A stretch of 6,326 nucleotides of DNA from Candidatus Lithacetigena glycinireducens (GTDB lineage: Bacteria > Coprothermobacterota > HKB111). Positions within the stretch are counted from its first letter, which is position 1; each line of letters begins with the position of its first letter. A program made the position numbers and the translations under genes. The stretch covers positions 1-6,326 of the forward strand of contig QLUP01000060.1 of NCBI GenBank assembly GCA_018725485.1. The letters run 5' to 3'. Shown one piece after another: positions 1-6,326 of this stretch. The notes beneath the pieces are model-generated. The model searched no databases. It had not been told where the DNA came from and saw nothing but the letters and a program-made list of their open reading frames with translations.

Positions 1-995
1 ACATATACTTCTCTTTCTAAATCTATCCAGATTGATGTCCCCGTATAACCGGTATGTCCAATAGTTCGGGGTGAAAAAAGGTCTCCAGAAGAAGATAATC
101 TTCGGCTTCTCATATCCCATCCCAGTCCCCGGTTCTCGTTAAGAGTCGAAGTATGAGACCTGGTCATCTCCTCCGCTACTTCCCTGGATAAGATAACTGT
201 TTTTTGGTATTTACCCTTATTGAGAAACAGTCTTGCCAGTATGCTTAAATCATTAGCATCAGAGAAAAGACCTGCATTTCCCGAAACACCTCCCAGAAAA
301 CGGGCATTGGGGTCATGTACTATTCCTTTAAGGAGCTGTCCGTTTATAATTTCCGTAGGGGCAATCGATTGCTTTTTTAAGTTATCGGGATTAAAAAAAC
401 TGTTTTCCAACTGTAGGGGTTTAGCAATTTCCTCCTTAAATAACACAGCCAGGTTTTTTTGAGTAACTTTTTCTAAAATTTCTGCTAATAAAATAAACCC
501 CAGGCAGCTGTACCTTACTCGTGAGAATGGTGGTGATAACAGGGGTTTCTCTATTATTTTATTTATGGCCTCCTCTCTTGATTGACTTCCAGTATAAATA
601 TCTCCCCAGGGAGCAATACCCGAAGTGTGGGTTAATAAATGAAAAAAGGTCACTTTACTTTTGTATGGGCCATTAAACTCGGGCATAAAGATGTTAACTT
701 TATCATCCAGCCTGAAAAGACCCTTTTCCAACAAAATCATAGTTATTAATGCTGTTGCTAATGGTTTGGTCATAGAAGCTATATCGTAGATGGTGTTGGT
801 TTCATTTTCTACAGACTCCGGAATGGTTGACCTGTTTCCAAAAGATAAAAACAATGGTATTTCATTAGCTTTCCCCACCAGAAGAACTCCTCCGGGAAAA
901 ACCCCTTCCCTTATACCACTCTGGATAAGGTTTAACAGGGAATTTACCGGTAGATGTTCACCAGTAATAAAGTTGAAGGATGTAGTATTATTCAT
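1..995 (-). CDS. Serine hydrolase, beta-lactamase / penicillin-binding-protein-like family (partial, C-terminus cut by window edge)
   Basis: The minus strand reads open for 331 codons from an ATG at 995 to the left edge. The protein has the three marks of the class C beta-lactamase / DD-peptidase-like fold: the nucleophile motif S74-M-T-K77 (in DIASMTKPLATA), a Tyr motif Y162-S-C164 followed by LGFILLAEILE, and H314-T-G316 in place of KTG. Also visible are THTSGI (122-127) and a family-typical stretch HDPNARFLGGVSGNAGLFS (227-245). There is no signal peptide or membrane segment, so it is probably cytosolic. Such proteins act as esterases, amidases or peptidases on D-amino acid or ester substrates; the exact substrate cannot be read here. 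The third residue of the Tyr motif is Cys instead of the more usual Asn or Asp. Related proteins usually continue a few dozen residues past the HTG, so the missing end is probably short. The ATG lies only 5 nt after the tRNA-Thr 3' CCA and no well-spaced ribosome binding site is seen. The family call is firm; the start is less certain. Confidence 0.88.
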   Translation of the reverse strand, partial: MNNTTSFNFITGEHLPVNSLLNLIQSGIREGVFPGGVLLVGKANEIPLFLSFGNRSTIPESVENETNTIYDIASMTKPLATALITMILLEKGLFRLDDKVNIFMPEFNGPYKSKVTFFHLLTHTSGIAPWGDIYTGSQSREEAINKIIEKPLLSPPFSRVRYSCLGFILLAEILEKVTQKNLAVLFKEEIAKPLQLENSFFNPDNLKKQSIAPTEIINGQLLKGIVHDPNARFLGGVSGNAGLFSDANDLSILARLFLNKGKYQKTVILSREVAEEMTRSHTSTLNENRGLGWDMRSRRLSSSGDLFSPRTIGHTGYTGTSIWIDLEREVY

Positions 996-1148: not shown

Positions 1149-1349
1149 ATGGAATGCCATATTAAAGAAAATATAGAAAAATGCTCCTGTTCGTATAATA
1201 ACTGCTCTCGCAGAGGTAAATGTTGCGAATGTATTTCCTATCATTGGTCTAAAAAACAGTTACCAGGTTGTTTATTCCCCGCTGAAGCTGAAAAAAGTTA
1301 CAACCGGACCCTGAAATATTTTTTGGAAGTTTATGGAAAGGAAGTTTAG
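1149..1349 (+). CDS. Small Cys-rich cytosolic protein, DUF6485-like
   Basis: This is a 66-residue protein with eight cysteines (C3, C12, C14, C19, C25, C26, C28, C41) and two histidines (H4, H32), most of them packed into KCSCSYNNCSRRGKCCECI. A basic stretch and an ELP/QLPGC-FP-type segment follow, then a charged helical C-terminus. The spacing CxC-x4-C-x5-CCxC-x3-H-x8-PGC matches my memory of the DUF6485 family of short clostridial 'cytosolic proteins', whose function is not known. The cysteine pattern suggests metal binding (zinc or iron-sulfur), which is inference. There is no signal peptide. It is the first gene of the rightward series and lies 52 bp before the Ord-like dehydrogenase with no terminator between, so co-transcription is plausible. 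Confidence 0.85.
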   Translation: MECHIKENIEKCSCSYNNCSRRGKCCECISYHWSKKQLPGCLFPAEAEKSYNRTLKYFLEVYGKEV

Positions 1350-1401: not shown

Positions 1402-2403
1402 ATGCAACCCATAGGTGTAGTACAATTTGGTCTCGGTCCAATAGGAAAAGGGGTAGCCCGAATAATTTGTGAAAAAAAGGAGTTAGCCCTTGTTGGTGGC
1501 GTAGACACCAATCCCCAATATATTGGTAAAGACCTTGGTGATCTTATAGGCGTAGGTCCTCTTGGGGTACCAGTAAAGGGTAGTTTATCTGAGCTTCCCC
1601 TGGATAAAGTGCAGGTGGTAGTTCATACTACTCAATCATACATTCCTCAGATTTATTCTCAATTAGAAGAAATAATTAAACTAAAACTCCATGTTGTTTC
1701 CACTACCGAAGAGTTATCTTTTCCTTTTATTAAAAACAAGGAAATGGTAAACAATCTTAATAATTTAGCTGTGGAAAACAAGGTAAGTGTCCTGGGAACA
1801 GGGGTTAACCCCGGCTTTCTTATGGATTCTCTTCCACTCTTTTTAACTTCAGTATTAAAAAAGGTTTATAAAATCAGGGTTTTAAGGCTGATGGACGCAG
1901 CTAAAAGGAGAGGTCCTTTCCAGGTTAAGATCGGTTCGGGATTATCAATTGAAGAATTTAAAAGAAGGGTTAGTGAAGGTACCCTCGGACATGTTGGTTT
2001 AGAAGAATCCGTATATTTCGTAGCCACCTCTTTAGGTATGAAAGTAGCCAGATACACTGAGACTATTGACCCGGTAACTACTGATGCCTTCATTAAAACT
2101 GACCATGTTGAAGTAGAGCCTGGTAAAGTAAGGGGTTTATACCAGGTTGGCACTGCCCTGGATGAGGAAGGGAAAGAGCTTATAAAGCTTGAATTCAACG
2201 CTTTTCTTAATGCTATGGATCCACACGATTTGATTGAAATTACCGGTGAACCCTCCCTTAAAGTGCTTATCCCCGGTGGAACACCCGGCGACATTGCTAC
2301 TACCTCTATCGCAGTCAATTGCATTCCCAAAGTACTAAGCGCTCCCCGGGGTTTAATCACTATGAAAGACATTGCGCTCAGTCATAATATTGGGAGTTTT
2401 TAA
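1402..2403 (+). CDS. DapB/Ord-like NAD(P)-dependent dehydrogenase, substrate unknown
   Basis: The 333-residue protein starts with a Rossmann motif G10-L-G12-P-I-G15 and has an acidic D35 (VGGVDTN) at the end of the second strand, a position that often favours NAD over NADP. Later motifs are VVHTTQSY (73-80), LGTGVNPGFLMD (131-142) and a C-terminal GGTPGDIATTSIAVN (292-306). This architecture, a dihydrodipicolinate-reductase-like N-terminus with a 2,4-diaminopentanoate dehydrogenase-type C-terminus, is that of Ord from clostridial ornithine degradation and of many proteins labelled 'dihydrodipicolinate reductase'. Its length fits Ord-like proteins (about 340) and is longer than true DapB (about 270). 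It is not called Ord, because the partner thiolase genes ortA/ortB are absent; instead tdh and kbl follow, the first only 15 bp away. AGGAGG at 1391-1396 sits 5 nt before the ATG. A role on an amino or amino-keto acid linked to threonine breakdown is inference. Confidence 0.85.
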   Translation: MQPIGVVQFGLGPIGKGVARIICEKKELALVGGVDTNPQYIGKDLGDLIGVGPLGVPVKGSLSELPLDKVQVVVHTTQSYIPQIYSQLEEIIKLKLHVVSTTEELSFPFIKNKEMVNNLNNLAVENKVSVLGTGVNPGFLMDSLPLFLTSVLKKVYKIRVLRLMDAAKRRGPFQVKIGSGLSIEEFKRRVSEGTLGHVGLEESVYFVATSLGMKVARYTETIDPVTTDAFIKTDHVEVEPGKVRGLYQVGTALDEEGKELIKLEFNAFLNAMDPHDLIEITGEPSLKVLIPGGTPGDIATTSIAVNCIPKVLSAPRGLITMKDIALSHNIGSF

Positions 2404-2418
2404 ACCCTGGAGGTAACT

Positions 2419-3453
2419 ATGAAAGCCCTTATTAAAAGTAGTTTCGAACCGGGAGTTACTCTAATGGAGGTAGAAAAACCCGTTCCCTCCAAAAATGAAG
2501 CCCTAATAAAAGTTAAATACAGTTCTATCTGTGGCACCGATTTACACATCTATAAGTCAGATGCCTGGGCTCGTAGCAGGATAAAACCTCCCTTGATTAC
2601 CGGTCACGAAATGGGTGGTACAGTGGTGGAAATAGGAAGCAGAGTGAGTCTGGTTAAAGTCGGGGATAAAGTAGCTGTTGAGACCCATATTGTTGACTGG
2701 TCCTGCGCAGAATGTCGCCAAGGAAAACCTCACTTATGCAGTTCAACCAGGATTCTGGGCATAGACTGTAATGGGTCCTTCGCTGAATTCGTAACCATTC
2801 CAGAAACTAATTTGATAGTAAACTCTCCTTTAGTACCTGATGAATTCCTACCCCTGGAAGAACCGCTGGGAAATTCGGTTCATGCAGCCACCATAACCCA
2901 GGTTTCTGGAAAGAATGTGCTGGTTGTAGGTTGTGGCCCACTGGGTCTTTTACTTCTCTCGGTTTTGAAATGTTATGGAGCTTCCCGGGTAATAGTTTCT
3001 GAACTTAATGACTACCGTATCGACCTGGCCAAGAAATTAGGAGCGGATTTAGTGATAAAACCCTATGAACTTAACCTGGTAAACGCTGTAAAAGAAGCCA
3101 CCCGGGGAGAAGGTGTGGATGTATCTTTTGACATGTCAGGACACCCCCTGGGAATAAGCGATGCACTTAAGGCTCTTAAACCAGGTGGACATATGATCTT
3201 TTTTGGTTTACCAACTTCTGATATTCCTCTTAATATTGCTGATGATGTAATATTCAAAGGTATAACCTTACACGGGGTTATCGGTCGCCAGATGTTTGCC
3301 ACCTGGTATGAAGTTTTAAACCTCATCGAAAATAAAAAAATAGATTTATTCCCCATTATTACCCATAGATTCCCCCTATCGGAAATCGATAAAGCTATGG
3401 AAGTTATGTCTCAGGGAAAATCGGGCAAGATAATCCTTAATCCTGAACTTTAA
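2419..3453 (+). CDS. tdh: L-threonine 3-dehydrogenase (zinc-dependent medium-chain dehydrogenase)
   Basis: The enzyme oxidises L-threonine to 2-amino-3-ketobutyrate with NAD+. The 344-residue sequence matches E. coli Tdh (341 residues, from memory) along its whole length. Catalytic zinc ligands are C38 (SICGTDLHIY), H63 and E64 (TGHEMGG), with T40 and H43 as the proton relay. The NAD site has G171-C-G173-P-L-G176 and acidic E195 (VSELNDYR), which supports NAD. The Tdh-typical segment GRQMFATWYE (289-298) and ITHRFPL (314-320) separate it from other alcohol dehydrogenases. In the structural zinc lobe C96, C99 and C107 are kept, but the first ligand is D93 instead of Cys. TGGAGGT at 2408-2414 precedes the ATG. 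It lies between the Ord-like gene and kbl, which uses its unstable product. Related polyol or butanediol dehydrogenases are the alternative, but kbl next door makes Tdh the clear choice. Confidence 0.93.
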   Translation: MKALIKSSFEPGVTLMEVEKPVPSKNEALIKVKYSSICGTDLHIYKSDAWARSRIKPPLITGHEMGGTVVEIGSRVSLVKVGDKVAVETHIVDWSCAECRQGKPHLCSSTRILGIDCNGSFAEFVTIPETNLIVNSPLVPDEFLPLEEPLGNSVHAATITQVSGKNVLVVGCGPLGLLLLSVLKCYGASRVIVSELNDYRIDLAKKLGADLVIKPYELNLVNAVKEATRGEGVDVSFDMSGHPLGISDALKALKPGGHMIFFGLPTSDIPLNIADDVIFKGITLHGVIGRQMFATWYEVLNLIENKKIDLFPIITHRFPLSEIDKAMEVMSQGKSGKIILNPEL

Positions 3454-3516
3454 CAGTTAATGAATGGGGGTAGTGCTTAAATAATTTTTAGAACAACCTA
3501 AGGGAGGTTTAGTAAT

Positions 3517-4710
3517 ATGAAAAAATTCCTGGAAATGATCCTTATGGATAACTTGAGACAGTTAGAAGAAGAAAACCTTTTAACTTACCTCAAAGTGCTT
3601 TCTTCTCCCCAGGGTCCCTGGGTTAATATCGGTGAGAAACGACTCTTAAACCTATCTTCCAATAATTACCTCGGTTTTAACACTCACCCACTTATGGTTA
3701 AATCGGCTATTGAAGCCACTGAAAGGTGGGGAGTTGGTTCTGGAGCTGTAAGAACCATTGCTGGTACTTTGCAGTTGCATATGGATCTGGAAAACGAATT
3801 AGCCCATTTTAAGCAGGTTGAATCAACTTTAGTATTCCAATCTGGTTATGCTACCAACCTGGGTGTTATTCAAGCGATGCTATCAGAAAATGATGTCATC
3901 GTTTCAGACTCTCTTAACCATGCTTCTATCATAGATGGTGCCAGGCTTTCCCGGGCTAAAACATTAGTTTATCAGCATACTGATATGAACAGTCTTGAAG
4001 AAAAATTGACTGAAGCACAAACCCTCAAACCTGGAAAAGTTTTACTGGTGACCGATGGGGTTTTCAGTATGGATGGAGATATTGCCCCTCTTCCGGATAT
4101 TGTTAAACTTGCGGATAGGTTTGAAGCCATCTTAATGGTTGATGATGCCCATTCCTCAGGAGTTTTGGGTAGAAACGGCAGGGGTTCTGTTGACCACTTC
4201 AACCTTCATGGCAGCGTGGACATACAGATAGGAACACTATCCAAAGCACTGGGAACTATGGGTGGTTATGTAGCCAGCAGCAGTTCCTTAGTAAAATATC
4301 TTATACAGAGAGGAAGACCATTGTTGTTTTCTACCTCCCACCCTCCTGGAGTAGTGGCTGCCACCCTTACCGCCTTGGAAATACTTAAGTCACCTGAAGG
4401 TGAACACCTGATAAACACACTCTGGGAAAATACCACTTACTATAAAGGAAAACTCGCAAAAATGGGATTTAACACTGGTATTTCTCAAACCCCCATAACC
4501 CCTATAATTACAGGAGAGGCCAGTGTTGCCCGCGAATTCAGTCAAAACCTATTCCAGGAAGGAGTTTTTGCTCAAAGTATAACCTTTCCCACGGTTCCCA
4601 GGGGAAAAGCCCGCGTGAGAACAATTGTAACTGCTACTCATTCACGCGAAGACCTTGATTTCGCTCTGACTAAAATGGAAATTGTAGGTAAAAAATTAGG
4701 AATCATTTAA
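3517..4710 (+). CDS. kbl: Glycine C-acetyltransferase (2-amino-3-ketobutyrate CoA ligase)
   Basis: This PLP enzyme of the alpha-oxoamine synthase family cleaves 2-amino-3-ketobutyrate with CoA to glycine and acetyl-CoA, completing the threonine route begun by Tdh. Its 397 residues match the usual length of about 395. Visible motifs are LSSNNYLGF (46-54), GSGAVRTIAGT (74-84), VFQSGYATNLG (106-116), DSLNHASIIDGARLS (131-145) with H135 stacking on PLP, TDGVFSMDGDIAPLP (179-193), VDDAHSSGVLG (208-218) with D209 and H212, and GTLSKALG (239-246) with the Schiff-base lysine K243. GRPLLFSTSHPP and RVRTIVTATHS follow. The sequence is close to Bacillus subtilis Kbl from memory. AONS (BioF) is the main alternative, but the tdh neighbour and the VRTIAGT and HPP motifs favour Kbl. 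AGGGAGG at 3501-3507 lies 9 nt before the ATG and supports this start over the ATGs at codons 7 and 10. The 63-bp gap after tdh holds no clear hairpin. Confidence 0.95.
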   Translation: MKKFLEMILMDNLRQLEEENLLTYLKVLSSPQGPWVNIGEKRLLNLSSNNYLGFNTHPLMVKSAIEATERWGVGSGAVRTIAGTLQLHMDLENELAHFKQVESTLVFQSGYATNLGVIQAMLSENDVIVSDSLNHASIIDGARLSRAKTLVYQHTDMNSLEEKLTEAQTLKPGKVLLVTDGVFSMDGDIAPLPDIVKLADRFEAILMVDDAHSSGVLGRNGRGSVDHFNLHGSVDIQIGTLSKALGTMGGYVASSSSLVKYLIQRGRPLLFSTSHPPGVVAATLTALEILKSPEGEHLINTLWENTTYYKGKLAKMGFNTGISQTPITPIITGEASVAREFSQNLFQEGVFAQSITFPTVPRGKARVRTIVTATHSREDLDFALTKMEIVGKKLGII

Positions 4711-4713
4711 CCT

Positions 4714-5589
4714 ATGATTGAGCCTACAACTTTTTCGGGTCTAAAAGCCCTGATGGCTTTTTATAACCTGGCTCCCAAAAAGAGAAAAGGGCAAAACTTT
4801 CTCGTTGATAATAACATCGCCAAAAAACTTTGCTTTTCCCTGAACCTTTCAGAAAAAGAGCCAGTACTGGAAATAGGTGGTGGGTTTCTATCCCTGAGTT
4901 TTCCTCTTCTTAAAGCAGGTTATAATTTAACTACTATTGAATATGACAGCTCTTTTTTACCCTGGTACCTGGAAGTTAAGAACCATTACCCCAACTTTAA
5001 TTACCTTATAGGAGATATAAGGAAAATGTTGCCTGATATCTCTGCTTTTTTTGCCAACCAAATACCCACTCGTGTTATTGGTAATCTTCCTTATTATTTG
5101 ACTTCTCACCTGCTGTTCCTTTTCTTGCCCGGAAAGTGGTGGAAAGAAGCCATCTTCACCATCCAGAAGGAAGTTGCAGACCGGCTTATGACCCCTCCTG
5201 GATCTAAACAGCGCTCCCCTTTAACCCTGATGAGAGAAGAGTATGTTAACATAAAAGTTGTTGCTGACTTGCCCCCTCAGGTATTTTACCCCCCTCCGGG
5301 GGTAAATTCCAGGGCTATTTTCTTGCAACGCAAGCTGGAATATAACCTTTCAGAAGAAGAAGATAATTATTTAAGAAAAGTGATTTACCTTAGTTTTTCT
5401 AAAAAAAGAAAAACAGTTCTAAACAGCCTATCTTTGTCTTCCCTGGGGCTGAAAAAAGAATTGCTGGCTGACATTTTTAAAGAAACTACCCTTGACCTAA
5501 ACCTTAGAGCAGAAGATCTGTCCTTGAAAGATTTTTTGTTTTTAGCGAAAACCCTGAAAGGTAGCGGAGTTGCAATACCCGAAATATAG
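4714..5589 (+). CDS. ksgA: 16S rRNA (adenine1518-N6/adenine1519-N6)-dimethyltransferase, divergent
   Basis: KsgA/RsmA uses S-adenosylmethionine to dimethylate two adjacent adenines in helix 45 of 16S rRNA, late in small-subunit assembly. The 291-residue protein shows KKRKGQNFLVD (22-32), SAM motif I VLEIGGGFLSLSF (51-63), acidic E76 (IEYD), D101 (IGDIRK), the catalytic N124-LPYY-128, IQKEVADRLM (150-159), FYPPPGVNS (191-199), SKKRKTVLNSL (229-239) and the C-terminal RAEDLSLKDF (265-274). The catalytic motif is intact and the overall order is that of KsgA, not of Erm resistance methylases. Several normally strict positions differ: the third glycine of motif I is Leu59, the usual YG before LS is RS, and the Asp of PPxVDS is Asn. 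It starts 3 nt after the kbl stop; the only AGGA (4698-4701) is 12 nt from the ATG, so translational coupling is likely. It overlaps ispE by 20 nt. Confidence 0.92.
   Translation: MIEPTTFSGLKALMAFYNLAPKKRKGQNFLVDNNIAKKLCFSLNLSEKEPVLEIGGGFLSLSFPLLKAGYNLTTIEYDSSFLPWYLEVKNHYPNFNYLIGDIRKMLPDISAFFANQIPTRVIGNLPYYLTSHLLFLFLPGKWWKEAIFTIQKEVADRLMTPPGSKQRSPLTLMREEYVNIKVVADLPPQVFYPPPGVNSRAIFLQRKLEYNLSEEEDNYLRKVIYLSFSKKRKTVLNSLSLSSLGLKKELLADIFKETTLDLNLRAEDLSLKDFLFLAKTLKGSGVAIPEI
5556..5561 (+). promoter_or_regulatory. Ribosome binding site supporting a TTG start of ispE inside ksgA
   Basis: GAAAGG ends 8 nt before TTG at 5570. In the ispE frame an in-frame stop lies at 5555-5557 and no ATG or GTG exists before the conserved PAKLNL motif, so this TTG is the only standard start codon available. 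Confidence 0.65.
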
Positions 5590-6326
5590 GTCTCCAGCTA
5601 AACTAAACCTAACTCTGGATATAAAAGGCCTGAGGAAAGATGGTTACCATGAGATAGATTCCCTGGTAGCCCTTATTTCTTTAAGTGATGAAATTGAGAT
5701 TATCCCCGGAGATGCAGGAATAGAATTCATTCCTCCCCTACCTGAAACCAGTTTAAATAAAGACCACAATACCGCTTATTTAGCCTGGGAATTTTTCCGA
5801 GAAAGACTTTCAGAAACAATTAAAATAAGGGTGTATAAAAACATTCCCCTGCAAAGTGGGCTGGGAGGTGGAAGTAGTAATGGAGCGGTGGTTCTACAAG
5901 CCTTAAATAACCTCTCGCAAAATCCCTATACTCAAGAAGAACTCCAAAGTATTGCTTTGAAAATTGGCTCAGATGTCCCGCTTTTCCTCCATAAAGGTAA
6001 TTTTTTTAGAGTGAGAGGTAGAGGGGAGATTGTAGAAGAACTTACTCTTAAACAAAACCTGTACCTTATTGTAATACTGACCGGTATAAAAATTTCCACT
6101 TCTGTCGCTTATCAAACCTGGGATAAGTTTAATATTGATTCTACTGCTTTTACAGAGCAGTTTCTCTCCAGTGGGAGTATTGAACATCTTAGCAGTGCTT
6201 TCTGGGCTGTATTGGATAGAATTTCTCCGAATCTTAGAACTATGAAAGAAATACTTCTATCTATGAGCGCCCCAGTGATAGGAGTTAGTGGTAGTGGTGG
6301 AACTTTATTTTTACCTTTTTATTGCC
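5570..6326 (+). CDS. ispE: 4-diphosphocytidyl-2-C-methyl-D-erythritol kinase (partial, C-terminus cut by window edge)
   Basis: IspE phosphorylates CDP-methylerythritol with ATP in the MEP pathway to isoprenoid precursors. The frame is open from TTG at 5570 to the right edge, 252 codons. GHMP-kinase motifs are in order: SPAKLNLTLD (8-17) with catalytic K11, KDGYHEIDSL (23-32), the ATP-binding glycine loop PLQSGLGGGSSNGAV (93-107), IGSDVPLFLHKG (132-143) with catalytic D135, and the C-terminal GVSGSGGTLF (238-247). Most IspE proteins have 280-300 residues, so about 30-45 are missing. KDGYHEI separates it from homoserine or mevalonate kinases. The start codon is TTG, overlapping the ksgA end by 20 nt, which suggests coupled translation and possibly low expression. 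Adjacency of ksgA and ispE is common in Bacillota, sometimes with small genes between as in Bacillus. Confidence 0.93.
   Translation, partial: MQYPKYRSPAKLNLTLDIKGLRKDGYHEIDSLVALISLSDEIEIIPGDAGIEFIPPLPETSLNKDHNTAYLAWEFFRERLSETIKIRVYKNIPLQSGLGGGSSNGAVVLQALNNLSQNPYTQEELQSIALKIGSDVPLFLHKGNFFRVRGRGEIVEELTLKQNLYLIVILTGIKISTSVAYQTWDKFNIDSTAFTEQFLSSGSIEHLSSAFWAVLDRISPNLRTMKEILLSMSAPVIGVSGSGGTLFLPFYC

Follow-up and report, generated by a model that had tools for sequence, protein, structure and literature searches.

An Ord-like dehydrogenase assigned to native amine dehydrogenase group G1 is encoded next to tdh and kbl in one bacterial genus

Contig QLUP01000060.1 (C162) of Candidatus Lithacetigena glycinireducens, analyzed here over its entire length of 6,326 nt and referred to as the window, carries a gene for a 333-aa Ord-like dehydrogenase (positions 1402 to 2403, forward strand) that lies 15 bp before tdh, with kbl following. 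Judged by its sequence, the encoded protein is an Ord paralogue of native amine dehydrogenase group G1 and not Ord, the 2,4-diaminopentanoate dehydrogenase of ornithine fermentation. The group itself is already known; what is new is that a G1 gene occupies an operon context unseen at the other G1 loci surveyed. The arrangement of the three genes had been proposed in an earlier sequence-only reading of the window, and the open reading frame (ORF), its domain matches and the same gene order in a sister genome of the same genus (QLTX01, 'Ca. Psychracetigena formicireducens' BS5B28) all bear it out. BS5B28 comes from The Cedars springs and belongs to 'Ca. Lithacetigenota', a proposed phylum (PMC9751293). 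The organism of the window is a deep-branching bacterium of serpentinite settings. The window genome is a 1.24-Mb draft in 204 contigs, 83% complete, and absences given below for single genomes come from individual searches.

Family, clade and active site of the Ord-like protein

The Ord-like protein has a DapB-type N-terminus (PF01113) and a DAP_DH_C domain (PF19328, 3.9e-37), and its fold family is fixed, as solved homologues match along its full length. Against the Ord equivalog model NF040740, it scored 262.7 bits and did not reach the cut-off of 400. The sequence-only reading had proposed a tree of the Ord-like clade and a comparison of the pocket with that of characterized Ord, and both set the window protein apart from Ord. 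In a maximum-likelihood tree of 88 proteins, 78 G1 rows and 8 G2 rows, the latter being the Ord group, split at 100/99, with the window protein inside G1. Neither tdh nor kbl adjoins the genes of its nearest tree relatives beyond the genus (L058, L161).

Group G1, which comprises 1,427 modelled active sites, is defined by Arg at P9, Arg at P12 (Phe in G2) and His at P15 (PMC11164908). When aligned to AmDH4 and other solved relatives, the window protein carries each of these residues together with the catalytic Glu at P3, with P positions assigned from the main text of PMC11164908, not its supplement. On the forward strand, the codon for Glu103, equivalent to catalytic Glu102 of AmDH4 (P3), lies at 1708 to 1710, that for Arg162, equivalent to AmDH4 Arg161 (P9), at 1885 to 1887, and that for His197, equivalent to AmDH4 His197 (P15), at 1990 to 1992, while codons 1906 to 1911 specify the G1 signature Arg169-Arg170 where true Ord has Phe168-Gly169 (P12). 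The window protein and Ord (G2; AmDH4 6G1M, 7XDU) are therefore alike in fold family, cofactor domain, catalytic Glu, carboxylate-binding Arg161 and His197, but differ in the Arg-Arg pair, in clade and in that no ortAB adjoins the window gene. With native amine dehydrogenases of G1, whose reference is E1QRK4 of Vulcanisaeta distributa, it shares full-length homology, the catalytic Glu, the arginines at P9 and P12 and the conserved His, the match being to the group definition and not to E1QRK4 (PMC11164908). Its motif RRxPxQxKxG recurs in close homologues. Finally, Asp35 aligns with AmDH4 Asp33, which by the rule of PMC11164908 suggests that the enzyme uses NAD(H).

The tdh-kbl operon and the surroundings of other G1 genes

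Behind the Ord-like gene, tdh (2419 to 3453, forward strand) encodes a 344-aa L-threonine 3-dehydrogenase and kbl (3517 to 4710, forward strand) a 397-aa 2-amino-3-ketobutyrate CoA ligase-type alpha-oxoamine synthase; together, Tdh and Kbl would convert threonine to glycine and acetyl-coenzyme A (acetyl-CoA). The gene unit extends beyond 4710, because ksgA (rsmA; 4714 to 5589, forward strand; TIGR00755 above cut-off) begins directly after kbl and its end is overlapped by an ispE-like gene (5570 to 6326, forward strand), a GHMP-kinase-like ORF named from its sequence that exits the contig and is complete in the sister genome. Gaps of 15, 63 and 3 bp separate the Ord-like gene, tdh, kbl and ksgA in turn. 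The sister locus (L002) has the identical gene order with gaps of 15, 65 and 3 bp and protein identities of 85-89%, and ratios of nonsynonymous to synonymous substitution rates (dN/dS) of 0.08-0.14 between the two genomes indicate purifying selection. We infer that the Ord-like gene is co-transcribed with tdh-kbl in this genus. As in the known threonine cleavage unit, genes for Tdh and an enzyme of the Kbl/BioF family are adjacent, but here a G1 dehydrogenase stands in front and ksgA-ispE directly behind.

Tdh passed NF003808 (404.8 bits vs a cut-off of 380) and missed the stricter TIGR00692 (400.2 vs 458.4), and its nearest solved chains are Tdh of the Pyrococcus/Thermococcus type. One structural-zinc Cys is replaced by Asp in this protein (HIVDWSCAEC vs HIVCGKCYAC in the closest solved Tdh), as is also the case in the sister genome. 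Kbl exceeded the cut-offs of NF005394 (490.5 vs 460) and TIGR01825 (551.5 vs 535.4) and missed that of TIGR01822 (383 vs 493). By sequence, it belongs to the TIGR01825 subfamily. It is also barely above the cut-off of the BioF model TIGR00858 (427.3 vs 426.5), and the solved chain nearest to it carries annotations for both activities, BioF and Kbl. It would therefore be unsafe to presume its acyl or amino specificity.

Whether the link to tdh-kbl generalizes was judged from 75 distinct G1 loci. These came from a survey of 386 bacterial genomes, 195 from the Asgard-containing phylum and 90 from three other phyla, with some of the 90 already counted among the 386. Only at the sister-genus locus did tdh or kbl lie within four genes of a G1 gene, giving a linkage of two genomes in one genus, and none of the 75 loci had ortAB, Kdd, KamA or Kce nearby. 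The neighborhood survey envisaged in the sequence-only reading thus upholds linkage to tdh-kbl within the genus and speaks against it elsewhere, with no linkage to ortAB in its place. Elsewhere in the window's phylum, tdh genes of 40-46% identity stand among unrelated genes; searches of these members yielded no G1 gene, and the six tdh loci read there had neither an adjacent G1 gene nor a Kbl match. Three plasmid-borne haloarchaeal genes with the G1 motif lie in other contexts or lack annotation, and a plasmid-borne Neorhizobium homologue is without the motif. A tdh-kbl cassette conserved across G1 is thereby rejected, and on present evidence the cassette is genus-specific.

Elsewhere, a different partner recurs. 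Aminotransferases dependent on pyridoxal 5'-phosphate (PLP) make up 19 of the 62 operonic neighbors of G1 genes, compared with 7 of the 730 other genes of the same loci (Fisher p = 2e-17, with kinship ignored). The majority, from Asgard archaea, are class III enzymes resembling GSAM and are encoded either upstream or downstream of the G1 gene; two of them scored 350 and 292 bits against the HemL model and are too divergent for its cut-off of 527. Asgard loci in which the G1 gene is directly beside the GSAM-like gene include L003, L004, L005, L181, L186, L188, L189, L191, L195, L198, L199, L200 and others. Class IV transaminases adjoin G1 genes in two bacterial genomes (L060:5839-6750, L061:8011-8850), preceding the G1 gene in one genome and following it in the second. 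At L067:6116-7108, the G1 gene overlaps the end of a same-strand gene of the TRAP-type transporter large-subunit (DctM) family, which suggests an imported acidic substrate, and haloarchaeal G1 genes neighbor either histidine-degradation genes, a D-aminoacylase and RidA, or a dipeptide epimerase. The thread common to these contexts may be the metabolism of acidic amino compounds, a theme that fits a pocket with three arginines.

Upstream of the Ord-like gene in the window is a small cysteine-rich DUF6485 gene (1149 to 1349, forward strand; PF20095, 6.4e-08), conserved and aligned in the sister genome. A tRNA-Thr gene (1001 to 1075) lies on the reverse strand just upstream of the operon, and its position beside threonine-cleavage genes is probably a coincidence. 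At the contig end, a beta-lactamase/esterase-like ORF (3 to 992, reverse strand), a serine hydrolase by its sequence, runs off the contig; the corresponding site in the sister genome holds unrelated genes.

Fermentation genes elsewhere in the genomes and the role of the enzyme

Both genomes carry amino acid fermentation genes away from the operon. In the sister genome, ord, ortA, ortB, oraS and oraE form a single operon in which OrtA, OrtB and OraE are far over their equivalog cut-offs. The Ord encoded there belongs to G2, the true Ord group, and is about 32% identical to the Ord-like protein of the window. The ortA and ortB genes, which the sequence-only reading had noted as missing from the window, were located with oraS and oraE on contig C146 of the same genome, in the order ortA-ortB-oraS-oraE; the contig ends just upstream of ortA, at the expected site of ord. 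A dehydrogenase gene upstream of one for a CoA-dependent cleavage enzyme is common to the ord-ortA-ortB-oraS-oraE operon and the window, but the window dehydrogenase belongs to another group, the cleavage enzymes are unrelated, and the true operon is found elsewhere in the same genomes. The lysine set kamA, kamD, kamE, kdd and kce is likewise present in both, with all five above equivalog cut-offs in the window genome and the sister set identified by matching sequences and gene order. As the genomes have their own ornithine and lysine gene sets, neither pathway requires the window enzyme. Each also has a GrdB glycine reductase homologue with one in-frame TGA, scoring 596 and 593 bits, just below the cut-off of 602. 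The lysine and ornithine genes, with GrdB, are found on C161 (L119:6644-12100) and C146 (L120:3371-7637) of the window genome (G000) and at L121 and L024 of the sister genome (G001). The published account of BS5B28 states that its genome yielded no complete pathway for amino acid degradation (PMC9751293), a statement with which our inventory of the kam, kdd, kce, ord, ort, ora and GrdB genes conflicts.

With modest confidence, we favor the reading that the window gene encodes an NAD-linked G1 dehydrogenase of a carboxylate-bearing amine or amino acid, co-transcribed with tdh-kbl and acting in amino acid fermentation. The enzyme would catalyze oxidative deamination of such a compound, or the reverse reaction, through conserved Glu103, with the acid groups of the substrate predicted to be held by Arg162, Arg169, Arg170 and His197. 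The sequence data show the clade, the active-site signature, the order of the genes and which pathway genes are present; NAD use, the direction of the reaction, the acidic nature of the substrate and co-transcription follow by inference. Most likely, the operon would serve fermentation of the Stickland type, because the cell also has glycine reductase and genes for ornithine and lysine fermentation, and threonine cleavage by Tdh-Kbl would supply glycine to the glycine reductase. Several points weigh against this reading. Every G1 enzyme is still without a known substrate: PMC11164908 reports that the candidates it had hypothesized failed and that the ketone substrates have yet to be identified. 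The operon also reaches two housekeeping genes, ksgA and ispE, so that shared transcription is weak evidence, and no proof, of a shared pathway. Lastly, the aminotransferase enrichment comes mostly from related Asgard genomes, and the statistic ignores phylogeny.

The same housekeeping genes invite the alternative that the enzyme performs an unrelated redox step and merely shares an operon with them. Linkage in a single genus and the varied contexts of other G1 genes would also be expected if the genes were chance neighbors, but three consecutive enzymes of amino acid type and constant spacing in two species are not readily accounted for, and we consider this explanation unlikely, though worth keeping in view.

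The sequence-only reading had raised the possibility of an extended cassette. In it, the Ord-like enzyme would share one pathway with Tdh and Kbl, either making or consuming 2-amino-3-ketobutyrate, with 2,3-diaminobutanoate as its source, or dealing with a by-product of the Tdh-Kbl route. The 15-bp spacing to tdh in both species, the comparable constraint across the three genes and, by analogy, the chemistry of Ord are consistent with this idea. Yet as a general cassette feeding Kbl it does not stand, since the link occurs in the two genomes of one genus and at no other surveyed G1 locus, and ksgA and ispE belong to the same gene run. The proposed substrates also sit uneasily with the pocket: the extra arginines suggest a second acidic group, which 2,3-diaminobutanoate would lack, while aminoacetone is disfavored because, having no carboxylate, it should fit an arginine-rich pocket poorly. 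We therefore regard an extended cassette as doubtful. More specifically, the G1 dehydrogenase might produce 2-amino-3-ketobutyrate from 2,3-diaminobutanoate or a similar vicinal diamino acid, for cleavage by Kbl to glycine and acetyl-CoA, with the glycine passing to glycine reductase. Such an unknown fermentation route is quite improbable; if true, it would give orphan group G1 its first physiological substrate.

That the enzyme is a plain Ord displaced from ortAB is hardly credible: it has the shared family and catalytic Glu, ortAB and oraSE elsewhere in the genome and the unexpected activity of a few G1 members on 2,4-diaminopentanoate (PMC11164908) in its favor, but is rejected by the score below the equivalog cut-off, the position outside the G2 clade, the change of Phe168 to Arg and the true Ord in the separate ort operon of the sister genome. 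The doubts of the sequence-only reading about an Ord role were thus well placed, with the separate ornithine and lysine pathways adding to them. Two further candidates were rejected, namely replacement of Kdd in lysine fermentation, as the genome's own Kdd is above cut-off, and a biotin route by amination of 7-keto-8-aminopelargonate (KAPA), as BioB was above cut-off in none of nine genomes of the phylum.

Implications for group G1 and for the genus

Group G1 is a large group for which neither a known substrate nor a useful genomic context has been reported. To these we add the tdh-kbl neighborhood of a single bacterial genus and a recurrent pairing with PLP aminotransferases that is strongest in Asgard archaea, two contexts that narrow the range of substrates worth assaying. 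For the organisms themselves, the genes for ornithine, lysine and threonine fermentation, together with glycine reductase, bear on whether the serpentinite-dwelling Psychracetigena are lithotrophs using H2, formate and glycine, as proposed, or are also amino acid fermenters.

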